From Cohaesibacteraceae bacterium (GTDB lineage Bacteria; Pseudomonadota; Alphaproteobacteria; Rhizobiales; Cohaesibacteraceae): DNA of 12,742 nt. Each line of letters starts with the position of its first letter. Position 1 is the stretch's first letter. Location of the stretch: contig JAESRR010000046.1 of the NCBI GenBank assembly GCA_016764535.1, positions 1 to 12,742 on the forward strand, read 5' to 3'. Below are positions 1,996 through 12,742 of the stretch, piece by piece. A program made the position numbers and the translations under genes. The notes beneath the pieces were generated by a model. That model searched no databases. It worked only from the letters and a program-made list of their open reading frames with translations, and had not been told where the DNA came from.

Positions 1996-2060
1996 AATTG
2001 GTTACTTTGTGTTCACGGGCCAGTTGTCGCGTAAATCTCCATGGTTGTCGTTGCATCCGT

Positions 2061-2078
2061 GTTACACGGGTATGTAAC
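2061..2078. promoter_or_regulatory. candidate operator of the XRE-TPR gene
   Basis: GTTACA (2061-2066) and TGTAAC (2073-2078) form a perfect inverted repeat with a six-base spacer, 28-46 bases before the proposed TTG start at 2107. XRE proteins commonly bind an 18-20 bp two-fold symmetric site in their own promoter, so this is a natural autoregulation site. It also supports the downstream start, because a start at 2041 would place the site inside the coding region. Confidence 0.45.
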
Positions 2079-2106
2079 TTGTTGTATTTCAGAAGGTTAT
2101 GTTGCC

Positions 2107-4275
2107 TTGGCGAAAAATGATGATTCCGATGTCGTGTGTTTTGGGAAACTGGTTCGCGAGAAGCGGGTAGCTCTGGGCTGGAGTCAAGAGGCGCTAGCGG
2201 GCACGGCTTTCCACAATCCAGACCGCAAAGGCTATGTTTCACAGATTGAGAACGGACAAATCCCGAATATCAAGCGCGCAACAGTTCAGAATGTTGCCCG
2301 AGCGCTGAATATCGACGTTGAAGAAATCCCACGCGCGTTACGCTGGCCGGAGGCGATTGAGGAAGGCAAAGATACCAATACAATTGCCCATGAGATACAC
2401 GGCCAGCTCAAAAAACTGATAGTGACCAAGGACGATTTGGAGAGAGTGACGATCAGGCATCGCATTGAGCTGAATGCCGTCAAAACAGCTCATAATGCGA
2501 CAGAGGGTGAACTGGTCTCTTTACTTACTTTCATCCTTCAAAAACGGGTATCGCCAGAGAACATTATTCCCGAACTTGAGCGTTCCTATGAACAACTATC
2601 AGAACTGCGGGAAAGCATGAAACACATGCATTCTCTGGCAAATGAAGTGCCGGAAATTGCAGCGCTGTTGCAACAAGCCAATGCCGCATTATCGGTTGGT
2701 ACCGCATTCTCGCTGGATGATGCGGACATGGCTCTTGAAAAAGCTGATATCCGTTATTCGGAAATTATGGCTGAACGTAAAGAGCAACTAAAACGGGACG
2801 CAGAAAATCGTGCTCAAATTTTGGGAAAGCGCGCCCAGATAGCCAAAGTGAAATTTAACTACAAAGCGGCCGAGGGTTTTTACAGGCAGCAGATTGAGTT
2901 GTTGATTGAAGGGCTGGGCGAAGATCATCCTGATACCACGATCGGTTACCATAAAGTAGCTTCCAGTCTCAATTCTCAGGGGTGGTTTGAGGACGCAGAG
3001 CACTTTTATTGTAAGGCTCTCGATATTAGAGAAAGGGTACTCGGCAAGGAACATCCAAGTACAGCAATCAGCTACAGTAATGTGGCAAACAATATGGACG
3101 ATCAGGGTCGGTTTCAAGACGCAGAAAGCCTCCACTGCAAGGCCCTCAATATTTTTGAGAGGGTGTTCGGCAATGAGCATTCTGCCACTGCTGCCAGCTA
3201 CAACAATTTGGCGTCCAATCTGGATGCGCAGGGGCGGTTTGAAGACGCAGAACCACTCTATCGCAAGGCTCTGGTTATCTCCGAGAGAGTGCTCGGCAAA
3301 GAACACCCTTTTACTGCAATCAGCTACAATAACGTGGCTTCCAATTTCAATGCTCAGGGACGGTTTGAAGAAGCGGACCCGCTCTATCGCAAGGCACTGG
3401 ATATCAGGGAGAGGGTTCTAGGCGAAGGTCATCCTGATACAGCAACCAGCTACAACAATATGGGGTTCAATCTTAGTTCTCTGGGGTGGTTCAAAGATGC
3501 AGAACTGCTCTATCACAAGGCTCTGAATATAAGGCAGAGAGTGCTCGGCAAGGAGCATCCTTCTACCGCAGACAGCTATAATAATGTGGCTTCTAATCTC
3601 AGAGCTCAGGGCCGGACTGAAGAGGCAGAACCGCTTTATCGCAAGGCATTGGATATCAGGCTGAGGGTTCTCGGCTTAGAGCATCCTGAGACCGCAACCA
3701 GCTACAATAATGTGGCTGGCAATCTGAGTTCTCAGGGGCGGTTTGTGGAGGCAGACCCGCTCTATCGCAAGGCACAGGATATTAGGGAGAGGGTTCTCGG
3801 CTTAGAGCATCCTGAGACCGCAACCGGCTACAATAATATGGCTTACAATCTCAATGCTCAGGGACGGTCTGAAGAAGCAGAACCACTCTTTCGCAAGGCT
3901 CTGGAAATAAGGGAGAGGGTTCTCGGGAAGGAGCATCCTGATACCGCGAGCAGTTACAACAGTGTGGCTTACAATCTCAATGCTCAGGGGTGCTTTGTAG
4001 ACGCAGATCCGCTTTATCGCAAGGCTCTGGAAATAAGGGAGAGGGTTCTCGGGAAGGAGCATCCTGATACCGCGAGCAGTTACAACAATGTGGCTTACAA
4101 TCTAAATGCTCAGGGGCGGTTTGAAGAGGCAGAAGTGCTTTATCGCAAGGCTCTTGATATTTTTGAGAGAATGCGCGGTAGGGAGCATCCCGACACGATT
4201 TCTTGTCAAGAAAACCTGGTAAGCTGCAGGGAAAAAAATATCTCGATTATAGAAACTCATGAGAAAAACGCGTAA
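2107..4275 (+). CDS. XRE-family helix-turn-helix protein with ~11 kinesin-light-chain-type TPRs
   Basis: A 722-residue cytoplasmic protein. Residues 12-70 form an XRE/Cro-type DNA-binding domain (GWSQEALA as recognition core, YVSQIENGQ as its second half). Residues 75-250 are charged and helical, ending in a stretch like the N-cap of other bacterial TPR proteins. Residues about 254-700 are about eleven 42-residue repeats of the form LGxEHPxTAxSYNNVAxNLxxQGRFEEAEPLYRKAL, the last degenerate. No NB-ARC, NACHT, protease or nuclease domain is visible, so output is probably transcriptional or by protein contact. TTG at 2107 is preferred: AGAAGG at 2091-2096 lies ten bases upstream, whereas ATG 2041 has no ribosome-binding site and the added 22 residues are unlike an XRE N-terminus. 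Several repeats are nearly identical in DNA, showing recent expansion. The two membrane-protein genes downstream are co-directional, the first after 87 bases with no obvious terminator. Confidence 0.85.
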   Translation: MAKNDDSDVVCFGKLVREKRVALGWSQEALAGTAFHNPDRKGYVSQIENGQIPNIKRATVQNVARALNIDVEEIPRALRWPEAIEEGKDTNTIAHEIHGQLKKLIVTKDDLERVTIRHRIELNAVKTAHNATEGELVSLLTFILQKRVSPENIIPELERSYEQLSELRESMKHMHSLANEVPEIAALLQQANAALSVGTAFSLDDADMALEKADIRYSEIMAERKEQLKRDAENRAQILGKRAQIAKVKFNYKAAEGFYRQQIELLIEGLGEDHPDTTIGYHKVASSLNSQGWFEDAEHFYCKALDIRERVLGKEHPSTAISYSNVANNMDDQGRFQDAESLHCKALNIFERVFGNEHSATAASYNNLASNLDAQGRFEDAEPLYRKALVISERVLGKEHPFTAISYNNVASNFNAQGRFEEADPLYRKALDIRERVLGEGHPDTATSYNNMGFNLSSLGWFKDAELLYHKALNIRQRVLGKEHPSTADSYNNVASNLRAQGRTEEAEPLYRKALDIRLRVLGLEHPETATSYNNVAGNLSSQGRFVEADPLYRKAQDIRERVLGLEHPETATGYNNMAYNLNAQGRSEEAEPLFRKALEIRERVLGKEHPDTASSYNSVAYNLNAQGCFVDADPLYRKALEIRERVLGKEHPDTASSYNNVAYNLNAQGRFEEAEVLYRKALDIFERMRGREHPDTISCQENLVSCREKNISIIETHEKNA
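3513..4145 (+). repeat. 126-bp tandem repeats inside the TPR gene
   Basis: The coding repeats of 42 codons are very similar in DNA here. Bases 3891-3961 and 4017-4087 are identical over 71 bases at exactly 126-base distance, and the stretch from 3663 matches that from 3789 over about 37 bases, again 126 apart. Such identity at synonymous positions points to recent unequal exchange or slippage, and to possible copy-number variation between strains. Confidence 0.8.
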
Positions 4276-4953: not shown

Positions 4954-5457
4954 ATGATCATTCAGTTTGAAATGTATTTTAGGCTTATCACAACGATCGC
5001 ATCCGTTGTGACAGCTTCCATGGTGGTGTGGATATTTTATAGATCACGCAGGCAACACCAGTTTGATTTTCTTGAAAAATCGTTTGACGTTTTGCAACGG
5101 CTTAATGAAAAGGCACTTTCAAGTTCGGCTAATTTGGAAGCGGTCGTAAAATCTGGAAATATCACTGATAAAACTAAAGCGGGTGAAGCTAGAATTCTCT
5201 ATTTCCATTACATGAGAATTAATCGGACCTACCGCGCATACGAATATTGGCGTGGAGGCTACATTTCTAAAGAGGTACGCGACAGGATTTCGGATCCATA
5301 TTGGGGCTCTTACAGGTATTTATTGGAAAAACCCCTTGGGAAGTCCGATAAAAGCAAACTTGAACGAATGCTGGAGAGAGGGTATCCCAAAGATTTTGCC
5401 GAGTGGTTTATTCCTCATGTCGAATCTTCTAAAGAATTGCCAGTCATCAATGATTGA
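4954..5457 (+). CDS. single-pass membrane protein with helical cytoplasmic domain, function unknown
   Basis: A 167-residue protein with one N-terminal membrane helix (about residues 9-29), a positively charged stop (YRSRRQ) and a soluble domain rich in aromatic and charged residues (LYFHYMRINRTYRAYEYWRGGY, broken here into its parts: LYFHYMRINR at about 89-98, EYWRGGYIS after it). The positive-inside rule puts the domain in the cytoplasm. No family is recognised. The ATG at 4954 lacks a clear ribosome-binding site; ATG 4972 is an alternative that still keeps the helix. The stop directly abuts a bidirectional terminator at 5457-5483. Like its neighbour it is AT-rich. Confidence 0.65.
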   Translation: MIIQFEMYFRLITTIASVVTASMVVWIFYRSRRQHQFDFLEKSFDVLQRLNEKALSSSANLEAVVKSGNITDKTKAGEARILYFHYMRINRTYRAYEYWRGGYISKEVRDRISDPYWGSYRYLLEKPLGKSDKSKLERMLERGYPKDFAEWFIPHVESSKELPVIND

Positions 5458-5483
5458 AAAACCGGGCGACCAAGATCGCCCGG
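5457..5483 (-). terminator. intrinsic terminator, probably bidirectional
   Basis: CCGGGCGA (5462-5469) and TCGCCCGG (5476-5483) form a perfect 8-bp GC-rich stem with a six-base loop. On the minus strand it is followed by five Ts (A5457-A5461), a canonical terminator seven bases after the stop of the microprotein ending at 5490. On the plus strand the tail AATTTGTT could end the convergent gene that stops at 5457. Confidence 0.7.
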
Positions 5484-5489
5484 AATTTG

Positions 5490-5591
5490 TTAATGCCAAA
5501 ATTTGAAAATTGAATGCACGATCTTTAATCCTGCCAAAAAACATTTCAAATATCTGGTTGCCAAATCGAGGCTGTCTGCTTTAAAGTTCAT
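5490..5591 (-). CDS. microprotein of unknown function (33 aa)
   Basis: A short ORF with strong gene-like context. AAAGG at 5603-5599 lies seven bases before ATG 5591; an ATG at 5597 is too close to that site. The upstream microprotein ends at 5604, so the two are tightly spaced as in an operon, and a canonical terminator follows seven bases after the TAA. The product is basic and mostly one amphipathic or membrane-associating helix (LATRYLKCFLAGLKIVHSIF). No family is recognised. A membrane-active peptide or a regulatory small protein are both possible. Confidence 0.5.
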   Translation of the reverse strand: MNFKADSLDLATRYLKCFLAGLKIVHSIFKFWH

Positions 5592-5603
5592 ACGCATACC
5601 TTT

Positions 5604-5741
5604 CTAATGAGGTGTGAGGGTAAAAAATTTAATGGCTACCTTTGTTTCTAGCGGGGGTGGCCATTTTGCTTTTCTAAAAGCTTGGCAATAATACATAGTA
5701 CCACTCGGGTCACTCAAGCTAATGTTTTTGCATTTCCCCAT
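5604..5741 (-). CDS. microprotein of unknown function (45 aa)
   Basis: ATG 5741 has AAGG (5753-5750) eight bases upstream, an ideal spacing. The product starts MGKCKNISLSDPSG, continues with a YYCQAF segment and a WPPPLE motif, and ends in a short hydrophobic and basic tail. With mixed polar composition and two cysteines it reads like a folded small protein rather than chance translation. Its TAG is 12 bases from the next microprotein start, suggesting co-translation. A hairpin-like repeat at 5631-5665 falls inside the gene. No family is recognised. Confidence 0.5.
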   Translation of the reverse strand: MGKCKNISLSDPSGTMYYCQAFRKAKWPPPLETKVAIKFFTLTPH

Positions 5742-5822
5742 CTAAAAAACCTTGCCTCGGTATTCGTTGTTTTTGTAAATGGTGTCAGTCCGCTGTTGTA
5801 AAATGTCTTACCCGGAAATATG

Positions 5823-5849
5823 AAAAGCCGGGCAGTCGAAGCTACCCGG
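5823..5849 (-). terminator. intrinsic terminator with UUCG-type loop
   Basis: Read on the minus strand, CCGGGTAG (5849-5842) pairs with CTGCCCGG (5835-5828), with one G-U pair, around a loop containing TTCG, and CTTTTC follows. On the plus strand the same stem has a C-A mismatch, so the minus strand is the functional direction. It lies eight bases after the stop of the microprotein ending at 5858. Confidence 0.6.
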
Positions 5850-5857
5850 GATGTTAA

Positions 5858-5977
5858 TTAGATGGTTTCGATAAAAATCTTGATGAGATCAATAATTATA
5901 TAGACAGCAATTCTTGTCAAAAAAATCCATAACCAGTGAGGCTTTTGTTTAGAAGGATTTGGGTGTTTAATTATCAT
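5858..5977 (-). CDS. single-pass membrane microprotein (39 aa)
   Basis: A 39-residue ORF with a polar basic N-terminus (MIIKHPNPSKQKPH) and one hydrophobic helix made mostly of Ile, Leu, Val and aromatics (about residues 15-37), so a small inner-membrane protein. A terminator follows eight bases after its TAA, which supports a transcript ending here. The ribosome-binding site is weak: an AAGGA lies about 20 bases before the ATG, too far. Hydrophobic microproteins of this kind include type I toxins and small membrane regulators; there is no direct evidence for either. Confidence 0.45.
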   Translation of the reverse strand: MIIKHPNPSKQKPHWLWIFLTRIAVYIIIDLIKIFIETI

Positions 5978-6372
5978 TATTCGAATGATTATCTAATTCC
6001 TTGTGTTGTTCTGATTGGGGTAGTTCAAAATCCGGACATGCAAAAACCCGCACCAAATTACCTATCGTTGGTGGCTATTTCCTTCTGTGTGTGGGTGATT
6101 GATTGCAAGTATGGTGGATCTGGCTTTGTTACCAGATGGAAGGATCACTGAGTCTATTGATCTTCATTTCAGGCGTTTTTAGTCGGATGCCTGGTGTTTA
6201 GAAAAGTTTGTCGATCCTTTTTTCAAATTCATTATTACTGTAGCAATACATTCAAAATCCCAGCGTTGAAATCGTGTTGACCCACACTTCAATCTTGCTA
6301 GACTCATCACAAGAGCTGCATAAGCGGTCATAGAGGACAGGCCATATATTCGCTTCACCATGAGGCGAAGCA
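5978..6372. other. intergenic region with one candidate promoter
   Basis: No convincing gene. A 71-codon plus-strand frame (GTG 5936 to 6151) and a 68-codon minus-strand frame (6385 to 6179) are open but lack ribosome-binding sites and family resemblance. Towards the right end is a candidate promoter for the HD-like gene (6277-6304). The rest is AT-rich and shows no repeats or stable hairpins that I can see. Confidence 0.6.
6277..6304 (+). promoter_or_regulatory. candidate sigma70-type promoter for the HD-like operon
   Basis: TTGACC (6277-6282), a 16-base spacer and TAGACT (6299-6304) match the -35/-10 consensus in five of six and four of six positions. It lies 69 bases before the start of the HD-like gene. 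Confidence 0.3.
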
Positions 6373-6996
6373 TTGAATGAGCCAAATTGTTTTACCCTGC
6401 CGTCTGGTTTGGTAATGAACCTCGAAAAGCCATCACCTTTGATGGTTCACGCACGCGATATCATTGACATCATGAACCGGTTGCCGGTGTTTTCAGGCAA
6501 TCAGGAAACGTTTGGCCATCTGTCATGGACATGGGCGCAGCGTGCTGTTGCTACGTGTCAGGATATTGAGCCGGTAATGCGCGCTCCAGCATTGCTCTAT
6601 CACGCACCAATCGTTTATCTGGGTGATATCCCGCAACACATCCAATCCATGATGTCTCACCACAAGGACCATTATTGGTTTCGGGATCTGGTAAAGCTAT
6701 TGCGGGAGGTGATTTATGAAGCTCTTGGACTGGGCTATTCGCTCAATGCCCATTCGATCGAATTGATTGAGGGCGCATACGCCCGGGTTGAAGTACTGGA
6801 AGGGTATTTTCTGCAAGCCAAGGTGAAGCCATCCAACTCAGAATGCACCATCCCATTCTGCCGGGGGTCTTTTCTCGATCACGTACACCCGAATGACTTT
6901 GAAAAACAGTTGCGGTTGGCAGGTATCGAAATCCCGGTGATTGCTGAACCTCATCGCCTGCGTCTTCTCAATGCGGGGGGCAAAGAAAATGGGTAA
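6373..6996 (+). CDS. HD-phosphohydrolase-like protein with lost metal ligands (pseudoenzyme)
   Basis: A 207-residue protein with the scaffold of phage and bacterial HD-domain phosphohydrolases (YfbR-like, usually about 190-210 residues). The opening FTLPSGLVMNLEKP, then ARDIIDIMNRLPVFSGN, TWAQRAVA, ALLYHAPIVYLGDIP and IEGAYARVEVLE line up with the family's SGR..DL.P, DIAHALSRI.RFGGH, SVAQHSV, ALLHDAAEAYLGDIP and ADR..L..E. At each metal position the ligand is changed: His to R57, His-Asp to Y76-H77, the later Asp to Y136. Only the YLGDIP motif is kept. Hydrolase activity is therefore unlikely; a binding or structural role is inferred. TTG 6373 is the first start after an in-frame stop and has GAGG (6362-6365) seven bases upstream; ATG 6415 would remove conserved residues. 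It overlaps the next gene by eight bases, so the two are co-translated. Confidence 0.65.
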   Translation: MNEPNCFTLPSGLVMNLEKPSPLMVHARDIIDIMNRLPVFSGNQETFGHLSWTWAQRAVATCQDIEPVMRAPALLYHAPIVYLGDIPQHIQSMMSHHKDHYWFRDLVKLLREVIYEALGLGYSLNAHSIELIEGAYARVEVLEGYFLQAKVKPSNSECTIPFCRGSFLDHVHPNDFEKQLRLAGIEIPVIAEPHRLRLLNAGGKENG

Positions 6997-7528
6997 GAGA
7001 TCGAAAGCGAGAGAGCAAATGCGCAGGGAGCTGGCAGCGAAAGGCCTGGAAACAAAATGGGTGCAGGACCCGGACAAGCCTGACTTTGAAATTAAACTCA
7101 TATCCAGGATTGACCAACCCACATTGAAGCGTATGCGCAGCAAGGGAACACTGGGCGATCGTCATCTGGTTGCAGCAATGCTTTTTGAAAAGCTGGTGCT
7201 AAAATCCGGCATGTCAGATTTATCGGCGCTGCCAATTGAGAACGAGCGCGTTGATACAGGAGGCAAGGGAGACAGCGAATACGCAAGGCTGGATGCAATC
7301 AGTGAATTGAAGCTGATCCATACCAAGCTTGGACAACGGAATTATCAAATTCTGGAATTTGTTGTGATCGAGGGCCAGCAGTTATCAGAGTTGGCATACC
7401 TGGTCGCCAGCCGAAAGGAACTGATCAGCGGAAACTTTGCCCGCGCAAGTGAATTTGCCGGGCGTATGCTGGCGTTATCTCTGGAGGATTTGCATAGCCA
7501 GTTTGTGATGCGGAAATCCAGTCTGTAG
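6989..7528 (+). CDS. DUF6456-like helix-turn-helix protein, tentative
   Basis: 179 residues from ATG 6989, which overlaps the stop of the HD-like gene (6994-6996); an in-frame ATG at 6941 lies deep inside that gene and is less likely. The N-terminus is very basic (MGKRSKAREQMRRELAAKG). The C-terminal half, with ELKLIHTKLGQRNYQILEFV and then EGQQLSELAYLV, resembles the DUF6456/sigma-region-4-like helix-turn-helix domain of alphaproteobacterial regulators and prophage proteins ('L..LH..LG...Y.LL..VV.EG..L.ELA'). A DNA-binding regulator or replication accessory factor is plausible. The match is by eye and weak; the operon link to the HD-like protein is clear. Confidence 0.5.
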   Translation: MGKRSKAREQMRRELAAKGLETKWVQDPDKPDFEIKLISRIDQPTLKRMRSKGTLGDRHLVAAMLFEKLVLKSGMSDLSALPIENERVDTGGKGDSEYARLDAISELKLIHTKLGQRNYQILEFVVIEGQQLSELAYLVASRKELISGNFARASEFAGRMLALSLEDLHSQFVMRKSSL

Positions 7529-7627: not shown

Positions 7628-9088
7628 TTAGATCGGAATTCTCATCGTTGAAAAATGAATAAAATTATAGAGCACAGCCATCAGGTAGAGATAAAAGCTG
7701 TACTTTGAAACGGACAACAAGTGCCGCCATCTTAGCTGTATTTTCTTTTCAAGAAAAACGCCGTCGTAGACCAAATTGTTAAGATTAAAAGCTTGAGGTA
7801 GGCCACTTGTTCGCTCAGCTAGCTCTAAATTTTTGGTCTTAACGAGCAGCATGACTCTTAGTGCGTTGTATAGTAAGGCAGTGAGAAATACCAAGAATGA
7901 CCATTGAAACTCCCAACCAGCCTGCCAATTCACCCCACCGTTATAAATGAAACGCCCAACAGCTTCCCAAAGAGCAATTGTAGATGTTTCCACGGGCATA
8001 AATTTAGCTTTGATCCAGGCGCTAAGTACGAACCACAAATATGGATATAAAAAGCCAGCCAACGCCACAATGTGCAGCACTTGCATAAAACCACTGTAAC
8101 TTGACCGAAGGGCTGCTACATCGTCATGGATCTGCATCCCCATCCGATCCCCTACGCTCAGCCCCCCATAATCGTTCAGGCATTCCAGGGCGAAACGGTC
8201 AACTCTACATTTCCCGACATTGCAACCTTTGAAACTTGTTTGAACGTCAAAATGAGCCCCAACGAATGACGCGTTGGAAATGTCCGCTTTCTCAAATTTG
8301 GCTCCGCGTAGATTGGTCCCAATAAAACTCGCATAATTTAGAACCGATTGCGTTAGACTAACTCGACTGTCTCCGATCATTATCGCAGTTTTATTCTGAT
8401 ACCCGAATGTGACACCAACGAACTCTATTGGAACATCACGAAAGTTGGCTCCCCAGAAATTTACATCGCAGTCTATAAATTTTGTGTTCCGAAACGAGAT
8501 GTGGTTGGCGTCAGTTTTTGATTTTGACTTTCGAATTTTAGTGTTGACAAAATTGGCTTTCCCGGAAATTTGCAGGTTCTCGAATATGAAAGTGGCAGTG
8601 CACAAGTTGACCGAAGAGAAATCCACCCCTTTCTGCCCAAAACTCGTGCGGGTAAATCTAACCATTTCCGAGTAAAATATTGTTCCTTGGAAGTTTGTTT
8701 CACTTCCGCCAAACGAGGTATCTAGAAAACTTACATTTCCATGAAATACACAGCGCAAAAAATTGACGTTTTTGTTATCTGCAAACTGGACTTTGTTGAA
8801 TGAAATCGCACACGGAAATTCAAGATCAGCGAAATTGAACTCTCCGTTCGACGGTCTGATCATGTAGTTATCAAACACAATTTGGAATTCTAAACGTTTT
8901 TTCTTCCTATCTTTATCATCCAATTTTGATAGTTCGTGTTCGAAAGATATTGCCTGTAATCGCCATTTGTCACGATTCATGAGTAGTGAACTATTTCGAA
9001 GATTTACTTCTTGCCGGACTTCGTAGGTTCTTGTTTCAGGTTTAATTAGCCAATCGTCAAAAGGCGAAAAATCGGGAGTATCTGTCAT
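7628..9088 (-). CDS. pentapeptide-repeat protein with C-terminal membrane domain
   Basis: About 486 residues. The N-terminal 75 residues are charged and helical. About residues 80-290 hold irregular pentapeptide-type repeats with Phe at the centre (NFLRCVFHGNVSF, then NYASFIGTNLRGAKFEKADIS), expected to form a right-handed quadrilateral beta-helix. Three membrane helices follow at about 335-357, 395-416 and 462-481. The soluble beta-helix thus probably sits on the cytoplasmic face of the inner membrane. Known pentapeptide proteins include gyrase-protecting DNA mimics, but the membrane part argues against that here. ATG 9088 is chosen; TTG 9100 adds four residues and has no better ribosome-binding site. 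The gene opposes the neighbouring phage-type genes, as an inserted cargo gene would. Confidence 0.75.
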   Translation of the reverse strand: MTDTPDFSPFDDWLIKPETRTYEVRQEVNLRNSSLLMNRDKWRLQAISFEHELSKLDDKDRKKKRLEFQIVFDNYMIRPSNGEFNFADLEFPCAISFNKVQFADNKNVNFLRCVFHGNVSFLDTSFGGSETNFQGTIFYSEMVRFTRTSFGQKGVDFSSVNLCTATFIFENLQISGKANFVNTKIRKSKSKTDANHISFRNTKFIDCDVNFWGANFRDVPIEFVGVTFGYQNKTAIMIGDSRVSLTQSVLNYASFIGTNLRGAKFEKADISNASFVGAHFDVQTSFKGCNVGKCRVDRFALECLNDYGGLSVGDRMGMQIHDDVAALRSSYSGFMQVLHIVALAGFLYPYLWFVLSAWIKAKFMPVETSTIALWEAVGRFIYNGGVNWQAGWEFQWSFLVFLTALLYNALRVMLLVKTKNLELAERTSGLPQAFNLNNLVYDGVFLEKKIQLRWRHLLSVSKYSFYLYLMAVLYNFIHFSTMRIPI

Positions 9089-9300
9089 CTGGGGTGCCAA
9101 CTATAAATTGCGAAAAATATTTGGGTCATCTTTTTTATGCGATGAAGCAACGTGTTTCGATCATTGAACTAGCTGCCATTTTCAACACAACGATCAGGAA
9201 TTTTCACAGGGCCACGATAACCTGCAGATATCTAGTTTTTACCCCAAGTCTACTTGTCAGATTCTAGTTTGACGTGAAAGATCTCATTGGAACTGCCAAT

Positions 9301-9471: not shown

Positions 9472-9501
9472 TTGACTACCCACGAATAACACCTCTATGA
9501 T
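9472..9501 (+). promoter_or_regulatory. strong sigma70-type promoter
   Basis: TTGACT (9472-9477), an 18-base spacer and TATGAT (9496-9501) each match the -35 and -10 consensus in five of six positions. Initiation would be expected near 9508, only about 14 bases before the stem of the terminator at 9522-9551. No ORF of normal size follows. Confidence 0.5.
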
Positions 9502-9521
9502 TCTGATACTGAAGAGATGCG

Positions 9522-9551
9522 CCCGGAGCTTGTTAGAGCTGCCGGGTTTTT
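9522..9551 (+). terminator. intrinsic terminator next to a promoter
   Basis: CCCGGAGCT (9522-9530) pairs with AGCT plus CCGGG (9537-9546, one bulged G) around the loop TGTTAG, followed by five Ts (9547-9551). It is a clear rho-independent terminator. With the promoter at 9472 it would give an RNA of about 45 bases, or act as an attenuator. An outer 7-bp complementarity (CCCACGA 9479-9485, TCGTGGG 9551-9557) encloses the element. Confidence 0.65.
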
Positions 9552-9666
9552 CGTGGGTTGATTTCAACGGATCCAGCAGGACCACTACGCGCGCGACTTC
9601 ACTGACTTTGTTCTGAAATAATTGATGGTGATGGCCACCATTTATTATAAATCTGATTTCTTCAGA

Positions 9667-10191: not shown

Positions 10192-10524
10192 ATGGGCAAA
10201 GGACCATTCAAGAGACTGGGCATCTTCTTTGTTTGTTTTTCATTGTTTGTGGGCGTTTTGTATTTGAAGGAAGCGAGCGCTACAGGGGCACTACAGAGCC
10301 CATGCTCCACACGATCAAAGATGGTCGAGTTACTATCCAATCGATATCAGGAAGCAAAGACAGCTATGGGGCTGATATCAAATCGCGGCGTTATTGAACT
10401 GTATGTGTCTGCATCCGGTTCCTGGACAATGCTGATCACGAGTAGCAATGGCAAAGCCTGTATTCTTGCTGCAGGTAAATACTGGCAGACGACGATTGCA
10501 GTGCCTGAAGGAGCGCCAGCCTAG
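10192..10524 (+). CDS. small exported protein with signal peptide, function unknown
   Basis: 110 residues. A typical Sec signal: basic start (MGKGPFKR), hydrophobic core at about 10-25 and ASA at 28-30 with likely cleavage after A30. The mature part has one helix (MVELLSNRYQEAKTAMGLIS) and a C-terminal segment (GSWTMLITSSNGKACILAAG) that looks like a small beta-rich domain common in short periplasmic proteins of alphaproteobacteria. Two cysteines (C38, C90) could form a disulfide. The ATG at 10192 has AAGGA seven bases upstream. Presence close to the terminase genes may mean a conserved border region or a phage accessory protein. Confidence 0.75.
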   Translation: MGKGPFKRLGIFFVCFSLFVGVLYLKEASATGALQSPCSTRSKMVELLSNRYQEAKTAMGLISNRGVIELYVSASGSWTMLITSSNGKACILAAGKYWQTTIAVPEGAPA

Positions 10525-10931: not shown

Positions 10932-11435
10932 ATGCCATCAAAAGTAAAAACCGCACGCAAGACCAAATTCACCAAAAAGCTCTGGAACCAAATCCTTGAA
11001 TATCTGATGGACGGGCTGACACTTCGCCAGATTGCCAATCGGGACGGTATCCCTTCAAAGGCAACAATCATGCGCTGGATCGCTGATTTCCCCGAAAGGA
11101 AAGTTGATTACGATGCAGCCCGGGAACTTCTGATTGATGCCATGGAAGACGAGATACTTGCGATCGCTGATGATGGCACTAATGACTGGAACTTCAGGGA
11201 AAACGGTCTCAAATCCGTTGATCATGATCATATCAATCGCTCAAGGCTTCGGGTTGATGCCCGTAAATGGATATTGTCGCATAGAAGACCCAAAACCTAC
11301 GGCGCGCCAACACAAATGGTGATCATTGAAACCAAAACAACCGACAAAAGCAAACTGTCTGCAGAAGATTTGGCAGCAGCTCTTGGTGAAGTCCTGATGC
11401 AGGGCAAATCAGGGAAGGCCGGCAGTGCCGACTGA
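10932..11435 (+). CDS. terS: phage terminase small subunit (Sf6 gp1-like)
   Basis: 167 residues. The small subunit binds phage DNA and guides it to the packaging motor. Residues 15-53 hold a helix-turn-helix (MDGLTLRQIANRDGIPSKAT), followed by a charged helix and the family signature: DWNFRENG at 85-92, HINRSRLRVDARKW at 100-113 and RRPKTYG at 118-124. The tail is charged. The order of domains and the length suit the Sf6-type family. ATG 10932 has a weak ribosome-binding site. The gene overlaps the large subunit start by 11 bases, so the two are co-translated. Confidence 0.9.
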   Translation: MPSKVKTARKTKFTKKLWNQILEYLMDGLTLRQIANRDGIPSKATIMRWIADFPERKVDYDAARELLIDAMEDEILAIADDGTNDWNFRENGLKSVDHDHINRSRLRVDARKWILSHRRPKTYGAPTQMVIIETKTTDKSKLSAEDLAAALGEVLMQGKSGKAGSAD

Positions 11436-12742
11436 ATTTGAAAAGCTTGTCGAGATCGTTGATGCGATGAGTGACGGGCGGCGGGCAAGACTTGAAAGCC
11501 TGCTTGAAGACAAACTCAATCGACCATGGAAACCACAGCCCGGACCACAAACCGACGCATATTATTCGCAAGCCGATCTATTGCTGTATGGCGGGCAGGC
11601 CGGTGGTGGCAAGTCTGATTTGCTGATTGGCCTTGCGATCAATGAACACGAGGTCAGTGTTATCTTTCGGCAAACACATACCGATGCCAGATCACTGGAA
11701 GACAGGCTGGAAAAAGTCGTTGAATTTGGCAAACTCAATCACTCTGATCATGTCTGGAAGTATGGTGATCAACGGATAGAATTTGGCTATCTGGAGAAAC
11801 CCGGAGCCGAAAAGAAACATCAGGGACGGGCGAAGGACTTTCTGGGTCTTGATGAAGGCGCGCAAATGCAGGCGCACAAGATCATCTTCCTGATGGGCTG
11901 GGTTCGTTCAACCAATCCAGAACAGCGCTGCAGAACAATTATTGCATCCAATCCACCCATGGCAGGTGATGGTGACTTTCTGGTGGAATGGTTCGCACCA
12001 TGGCTTGATCCAACATACCCGGACCCTGCAGAGCCTGGGGAATTGCGTTGGGCAGTGTTTGTTGGTGACGAGCACGAGATCCGGTCAATCTGGGTGGATG
12101 GTCCCGATCCTGTCGAGATTGAAGGACAAAGAAGAGAACCGGAAAGCCGGACGTTTATTCCCTCAACGCTGGATGACAACAGATATCTGCGGGACACCGA
12201 CTATTCCAAAAAACTGGATAGCCTGCCTGAACCAATGCGCAGCGCGCTTAAGTCCGGCAACTTCATGGCTAGTCGAAAAGATCATCAATGGCAGGTGATA
12301 CCATCGGACTGGATCAGACTTGCCCAGGAACGCTGGAGGGAAGATGGCGGTCGTCATATCCCGATGTGGTGTCTTGCTGCAGATATCGCACAGGGTGGCA
12401 ATGACAAGACAACACTTGCACCACTGCATGACCAATGGTTTGGAAATCTGGGCGTTCACAAGGGCATTGAAACAAAGAACGGACCCGATGTTGCAGCTCT
12501 GATCCTCGCCATGCGGCGCAATGGGGCCGACGTCGCGATCGATTGCACCGGAGGCTGGGGTGGTTCAACGCGGGATCATCTTCGCACCCACAACCAGATC
12601 TATAGCCGGGAGATATTGTTCTCGGCCAAATCCGACAGGCAGGCAATCGATACGCAGCTTGGTTTTCGGAACTATCGCGCCGAAATGTACTGGCGGTTTC
12701 GCGAGGCGCTTAATCCCGGGGGTGAATACCGGGTTGCGCTAC
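11425..12742 (+). CDS. terL: phage terminase large subunit, 3' end beyond window
   Basis: The packaging ATPase and nuclease of a tailed phage; 439 codons are visible, with no stop. GTG 11425 is chosen because AGGGAAGG (11411-11418) lies six bases upstream and the protein starts PTEFEKLVEIV. Walker A is GGQAGGGKS at residues 56-64, Walker B is LGLDE at 140-144, and the coupling motif is ASNPP at 174-178. In the RNase H-like nuclease domain, AADIAQGGNDKT at 318-329 supplies metal ligand D320, and AIDCTGGWGG at 371-380 supplies D373; the third acidic ligand would lie beyond the edge. All visible catalytic motifs are intact, so this is a working gene, consistent with a functional phage or prophage. 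Confidence 0.95.
   Translation, partial: MPTEFEKLVEIVDAMSDGRRARLESLLEDKLNRPWKPQPGPQTDAYYSQADLLLYGGQAGGGKSDLLIGLAINEHEVSVIFRQTHTDARSLEDRLEKVVEFGKLNHSDHVWKYGDQRIEFGYLEKPGAEKKHQGRAKDFLGLDEGAQMQAHKIIFLMGWVRSTNPEQRCRTIIASNPPMAGDGDFLVEWFAPWLDPTYPDPAEPGELRWAVFVGDEHEIRSIWVDGPDPVEIEGQRREPESRTFIPSTLDDNRYLRDTDYSKKLDSLPEPMRSALKSGNFMASRKDHQWQVIPSDWIRLAQERWREDGGRHIPMWCLAADIAQGGNDKTTLAPLHDQWFGNLGVHKGIETKNGPDVAALILAMRRNGADVAIDCTGGWGGSTRDHLRTHNQIYSREILFSAKSDRQAIDTQLGFRNYRAEMYWRFREALNPGGEYRVAL

Follow-up and report, generated by a model that had tools for sequence, protein, structure and literature searches.

Two look-alike transcription stop signals, each directly behind a tiny open reading frame, were found on the minus strand of a gap between two plus-strand genes, and their arrangement is suggestive of a pair of very short genes or RNAs. 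As read from the DNA, the gap likely holds two short, terminator-ended minus-strand transcription units beside phage genes. The best single reading, put forward tentatively and at somewhat less than an even chance, is that at least one of these units would be the mRNA of a microprotein. The frames, the hairpins, their spacing, and the rarity of the hairpin pattern are direct observations.

The gap and its setting

The window, i.e., the whole stretch of DNA analyzed here, is an entire contig (C294) of 12,742 bases from a draft genome of 3,855,417 bases that is 87% complete. The gap containing the three frames is AT-rich, with a G+C content of 35-42% over positions 5458-6372 in contrast to 47.6% in a 244,562-base sample of the genome, and it is flanked by plus-strand genes at 4954-5457 and 6373-6996. 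The right part of the window is phage-derived, with the small and large terminase subunits encoded at 10932-12741. No prophage borders were found. The features of the gap and of the converging gene are as follows:

4954-5457, plus strand: converging gene for a 167-aa protein of an unnamed family, with homologues in the protein database; stop codon at 5455-5457
5483-5462, minus strand: T2, intrinsic terminator hairpin CCGGGCGATCTTGGTCGCCCGG followed by TTTTTCA; -17.8 kcal/mol for a 32-nt stretch
5597-5490 (5591-5490), minus strand: 35-codon ATG frame, or 33 codons from the inner ATG at 5591; stop 6 nt before the T2 stem
5717-5688, minus strand: P2, promoter-like site TTGAGT-18-TATTAT (9/12), inside the 45-codon frame and upstream of the 33-codon frame
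5741-5604, minus strand: 45-codon ATG frame with AAGG 8 nt upstream of its start
5849-5828, minus strand: T1, intrinsic terminator hairpin CCGGGTAGCTTCGACTGCCCGG followed by CTTTTCA; -14.3 kcal/mol for a 30-nt stretch
5920-5892, minus strand: P1, promoter-like site TTGACA-17-AATTAT (10/12), located within the 39-codon frame; 42 nt separate it from the T1 stem
5977-5858, minus strand: 39-codon ATG frame, candidate membrane microprotein; stop 8 nt before the T1 stem

The converging gene returned 18 rows from the protein database, where the first was the gene itself and the other 17 shared 41-55% identity with it. Its product has a hydrophobic N-terminus and the motif SFDVLQR...YFHYMRINR, and it was without a match in Pfam, PHROG, NCBIfam, and PADLOC. 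Among the other neighbors, the 744-aa protein encoded at 2041-4275 includes an N-terminal helix-turn-helix followed by many tetratricopeptide repeats, and a pentapeptide-repeat protein with hydrophobic C-terminal stretches is encoded on the minus strand at 7628-9100. Matches to PHROG families of unknown function were found at 10192-10524 and at 6989-7528, the latter encoding a 179-aa protein (PHROG 21451) that had no match in Pfam or among solved structures. By eye, the C-terminal part of this 179-aa protein resembles a helix-turn-helix of the sigma-region-4 type, and for this reason the protein is a possible late-gene regulator.

Two look-alike terminators

Both T1 and T2 have the form of an intrinsic (Rho-independent) terminator on the minus strand, i.e., a G+C-rich hairpin directly followed by a T-run. 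T1 begins 8 bases after the stop of the 39-codon frame and T2 begins 6 bases after the stop of the 33/35-codon frame, in agreement with the sequence-only reading, which had placed terminators behind the first and the last of three small frames. The resemblance of the two hairpins that it described was also recovered, as TGAAAA-N-CCGGGC is common to both on the plus strand. Restriction to the minus strand, which had been claimed for one of the two hairpins, holds for T1 but not for T2, where a weak T-tail is also present on the plus strand. Since T2 starts 4 bases past the stop of the converging gene and carries this weak plus-strand tail, it may serve both strands.

The position of T2 behind a gene with homologues also favors an alternative in which the gap is mostly non-functional DNA, where T2 ends the plus-strand gene, T1 is its relic or duplicate, and the three frames arose by chance. 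We regard this alternative as rather unlikely. T1 lies behind no recognized plus-strand gene and its T-run faces the minus strand, and no hairpin of the T1/T2 type was found in the DNA after the stop of the homologue of the converging gene at the one fetched locus, L017 in Nioella. In addition, strong terminators are scarce: 61 were identified on both strands of about 872 kb, comprising 60 fetched stretches (859,354 bases) and the window. Seven pairs in this sample lay within 1.5 kb, but three (L028, L025, and L087 at 18071/18089) were scored as the two strand readings of a single hairpin. The remaining four pairs of distinct hairpins included two with both members on one strand, hence only one same-strand pair besides T1-T2, and T1 and T2 were the most alike among the four. 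Given this scarcity of strong terminators and of close same-strand pairs, two same-strand terminators 366 nt apart are unlikely to occur without minus-strand transcripts.

The hairpin pattern is rare in the source genome. The pattern CCGGGN{10,14}CCCGGYTTTT had two matches in 3,855,417 bases, T1 and T2 themselves, and a backward control had one; a looser pattern with the CCCGG arm first gave 15 strand matches across the genome, including one within the window. Among 20 genomes of the family, TGAAAANCCGGGCN{8,14}CCCGG was found in the source genome and was missing in the other 19 searched. By alignment score, T1-T2 ranked fifth among 1830 terminator pairs. In two of the four higher-ranking pairs, a single hairpin was matched with its own reading on the opposite strand, and the other two consisted of unrelated hairpins on different contigs, so that the likeness of T1 and T2 is notable without being extreme. 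A likeness of the two units beyond their hairpins was considered and rejected: when they were aligned with the hairpins included, the similarity had a P of 0.038 against mononucleotide shuffles; the peptides of the two units are unrelated to each other. The hairpin pattern was also found in seven viral contigs, with one match each and no contig carrying two. By position, at least two of the seven (L041 and L042) lay directly after a frame and four lay inside longer frames. Because it occurs singly in viral contigs and is in part placed like a terminator, the pattern is regarded as a generic terminator form and not as the marker of an element.

Small frames beside the hairpins

The three small same-strand frames that had been reported are present as minus-strand ATG frames, the third having 35 codons, or 33 from its inner ATG, and the 12-base distance reported between the last two separates the stop of the 45-codon frame from this inner ATG. 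By number and length, such frames are near chance: three ATG frames of at least 33 codons occurred on one given strand in 2.4% of 2000 dinucleotide shuffles and on either of the two strands in 6.9%, the latter in line with the view of the gap as mostly non-functional.

Where the frames end is less easily put down to chance. With the terminators fixed and the upstream DNA shuffled (5000 shuffles each), 2.9% of the T1 shuffles and 2.1% of the T2 shuffles had a frame of at least 30 codons whose end lay no more than 10 bases from the stem. The joint P for both stems was 0.0006 and ranged from 0.0005 to 0.015 over nine threshold pairs, the thresholds having been chosen after the case was seen. Among the other strong terminators of the sample, ATG frames of 30-59 codons stopped within 10 nt of none of 52 and within 40 nt of six of 52; the count covers 54 terminators, as seven of the 61 were dropped for short upstream sequence. 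The earlier description of a small frame plus a terminator, occurring twice, is thus geometrically fair and better than chance.

Signals of translation were weaker than first described. The ribosome-binding sites of the last two frames had been called ideal, which is an overstatement, as they are 4-base AAGG matches located 8 bases (45-codon frame) and 7 bases (33-codon frame) before the start; the 39-codon frame has a match of three bases at most. Matches of at least four bases precede roughly 15% of the 2792 ATGs in a loosely defined non-coding set, as against some 37% of the first ATGs of long open reading frames (70 in all). Codon usage gave no support for coding, as the three frames scored within the non-coding range or in its overlap, which counts against microproteins and in favor of non-functional DNA. 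A score based on synonymous codons only has weak power at such lengths, as even a 140-aa neighbor scored low. The 45-codon frame is probably a chance frame.

Predicted peptides and searches for relatives

Two of the products had been described as membrane-associating. This is clear for the 39-aa product, with a best 19-residue Kyte-Doolittle mean of 2.17, and no second such product was found (1.00 for the 33-aa and 0.13 for the 45-aa product). The value of the 39-aa product exceeds that of 99.6% of 2772 products of shuffled frames (0.4% reach it); it is less special within the genome, where it was reached by two of 85 non-coding frames and one of seven AT-rich ones. In yeast, T-rich non-genic DNA has been reported to be prone to encode membrane segments (PMC7005711). 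Single-sequence models predicted one helix for the 39-aa product (residues 14-38) and one for the 33-aa product (residues 3-32), with mean pLDDT values of 83.5 and 84.9, respectively.

None of the three peptides had a convincing relative among proteins, phages, plasmids, or related genomes, where the sequence-only reading had proposed to look for codon-level selection. The 39-aa frame had no match in Pfam, NCBIfam, and PADLOC, and one weak match in PHROG (phrog_16940, E 0.034, function unknown). Against 297 genomes of the order, it matched 54 at E <= 1 including its own, with a next best E of 0.021, and against 385 genomes of the class it matched two at E <= 0.01, its own and L097; the L097 match was rejected as its alignment crosses stop codons. 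Among 101 relatives, the 45-aa frame matched five and the 33-aa frame three at E <= 0.1, each including the source genome, and the next best values (0.026 and 0.049, respectively) were unconvincing. The protein database returned nothing for the 45-aa frame or for the 44-codon open frame containing the 39-aa frame. In tblastn searches of phages and plasmids, the latter tried with the 39-aa frame only, matches were weak (E 0.2 or worse), and the 33-aa frame had none in phages.

Similarly, the gap DNA matched 33 of 61 genomes at E <= 1 including its own, the others through stretches of 17-43 bases with a best E of 0.007, and a sensitive blastn search returned nine phage records and one plasmid record with matches of 22-42 bases at E >= 1. 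This lack of relatives is also what non-functional DNA would predict. For the neighboring genes, the 167-aa gene was placed at one locus in the genome contigs, that of Nioella; it had no locus in viral contigs or phages, and was found in its own genome only among the 61 relatives and in the class-wide set of 385 genomes. Viral contigs gave no locus for either the 207-aa or the 179-aa gene; in phages, three weak records were returned for the former and none for the latter.

Promoter-like sites and possible short RNAs

The scan, which covered sigma-70-type consensus sites, identified 24 promoter-like sites in the window, close to the shuffle mean of 19.8. Only two of them matched at 10 of 12 positions, namely P1 and a plus-strand site at 9472-9501. 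P1 is the best minus-strand site in the window, and a predicted RNA of about 60 bases would run from it to T1. Because P1 sits within the 39-codon frame, such an RNA would exclude the start codon of that frame. No minus-strand site of at least 9/12 was found at 5978-7340, ahead of the 39-codon start, or at 5828-5742, ahead of the 45-codon start, and the former result argues against a 39-codon mRNA made from a sigma-70-type promoter. Directly behind the -10 box of P1, a perfect 5+5 palindrome, TTGATGAGATCAA, occupies 5880-5892 and is a possible operator candidate. No LexA-like site was found within 2 kb with simple motifs.

These sites are central to a second alternative, in which both units are non-coding, with an RNA of about 60 nt from P1 to T1, an RNA of about 225 nt from P2 to T2, and incidental frames. 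The shorter RNA would resemble lambda OOP, or else a short leader of the kind made where a terminator closely follows a phage promoter. It would act as an antisense RNA or as a leader whose termination is overcome by antitermination. Both 10/12 sites closely precede hairpins, by 42 nt at T1 and by 20 nt at a third hairpin (9522-9546), and this applies to two of four terminators in the window, compared with one of 302 in the genome sample having a 10/12 site 5-80 nt upstream (1.92 expected). Local shuffles, however, gave P values of 0.045 and 0.033 for the two pairs, which is compatible with chance, and T2 has no 10/12 site in the preceding 110 nt, where the best is 8/12. No Rfam family reached its gathering score; matches below the cut-off were tsr31, snoR38, and PhrS, the last far below it (19.2 bits against 37, E 0.013). 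The non-coding alternative also leaves the frame ends beside both stems unexplained, and we regard it as rather unlikely.

The third hairpin has the form CCCGG...CCGGG with a T-run and lies 20 bases after the plus-strand site at 9472-9501. The resulting unit at 9472-9557, with flanking arms CCCACGAA and TTCGTGGG, lies upstream of the terminase genes, in a second gap that appears empty. It resembles a late promoter of phages coupled to an early terminator, of the lambda pR'-tR' type.

With codon usage giving no signal, relatives unconvincing, and the best minus-strand promoter-like site skipping the 39-codon start, the proposal of three microproteins lacks support. The toxin or regulatory peptide cassette that had been suggested fares no better on codon usage or on relatives of any of the peptides.

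Comparison with known systems

By analogy, the unit would work like a prophage accessory unit. PMC7067206 describes a candidate accessory gene that lies antisense to the lytic genes and has a promoter of its own. Prophage accessory ("moron") loci share with the gap a putative short unit antisense to neighboring phage genes; unlike them, the gap has no recognizable product, and its promoters are predicted by consensus only.

Membrane type I toxins (TisB, Ibs, Ldr, Hok, and Fst) are alike in having a tiny single-helix peptide, which is predicted here. TisB, for example, is a tiny hydrophobic or amphipathic single-helix peptide of 29 aa (PMC8309996). The likeness is one of description; no family-library match named such toxins, and no antisense RNA antitoxin was identified. 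The plus-strand promoter-like sites at 5868-5896 and 5948-5977, considered as sources of an antisense RNA, were just 9/12 matches, and Rfam gave no match at its cut-off.

Lambda OOP RNA (pO-oop-to; PMC5869508) is a short promoter-to-terminator unit opposite phage genes, and the P1-T1 stretch would share this layout and orientation. The stretch differs in that no recognized plus-strand gene overlaps it and in that no LexA-like site was found within 2 kb with simple motifs.

Proposed reading and implications

Under the tentatively favored reading of two very short minus-strand units, each would be closed by one of the look-alike intrinsic terminators, and transcription of the converging gene at 4954-5457 may end at T2 too. 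The microprotein mRNA would most plausibly be that of the 33-codon frame, transcribed from the weak P2 with a leader of about 90 nt and the AAGG site, and stopping 6 nt before T2. The 39-codon membrane peptide before T1 could possibly have a microprotein mRNA as well. We infer that these peptides, if made, would be single helices located at the inner membrane, where they would serve the element as accessory factors. A bolder version is improbable: that the gap is a new accessory cassette of two sibling-terminator units whose products are orphan membrane microproteins of a single helix each, one having arisen from the T-rich DNA of a mobile element.

If the units are not real, the case shows that AT-rich gaps yield small frames and hydrophobic products at close to chance levels, and that only the terminators carry weight. 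If they are real, genes below annotation size would be findable from their terminators rather than from their frames, and the gap would hold a candidate orphan membrane microprotein beside phage genes.
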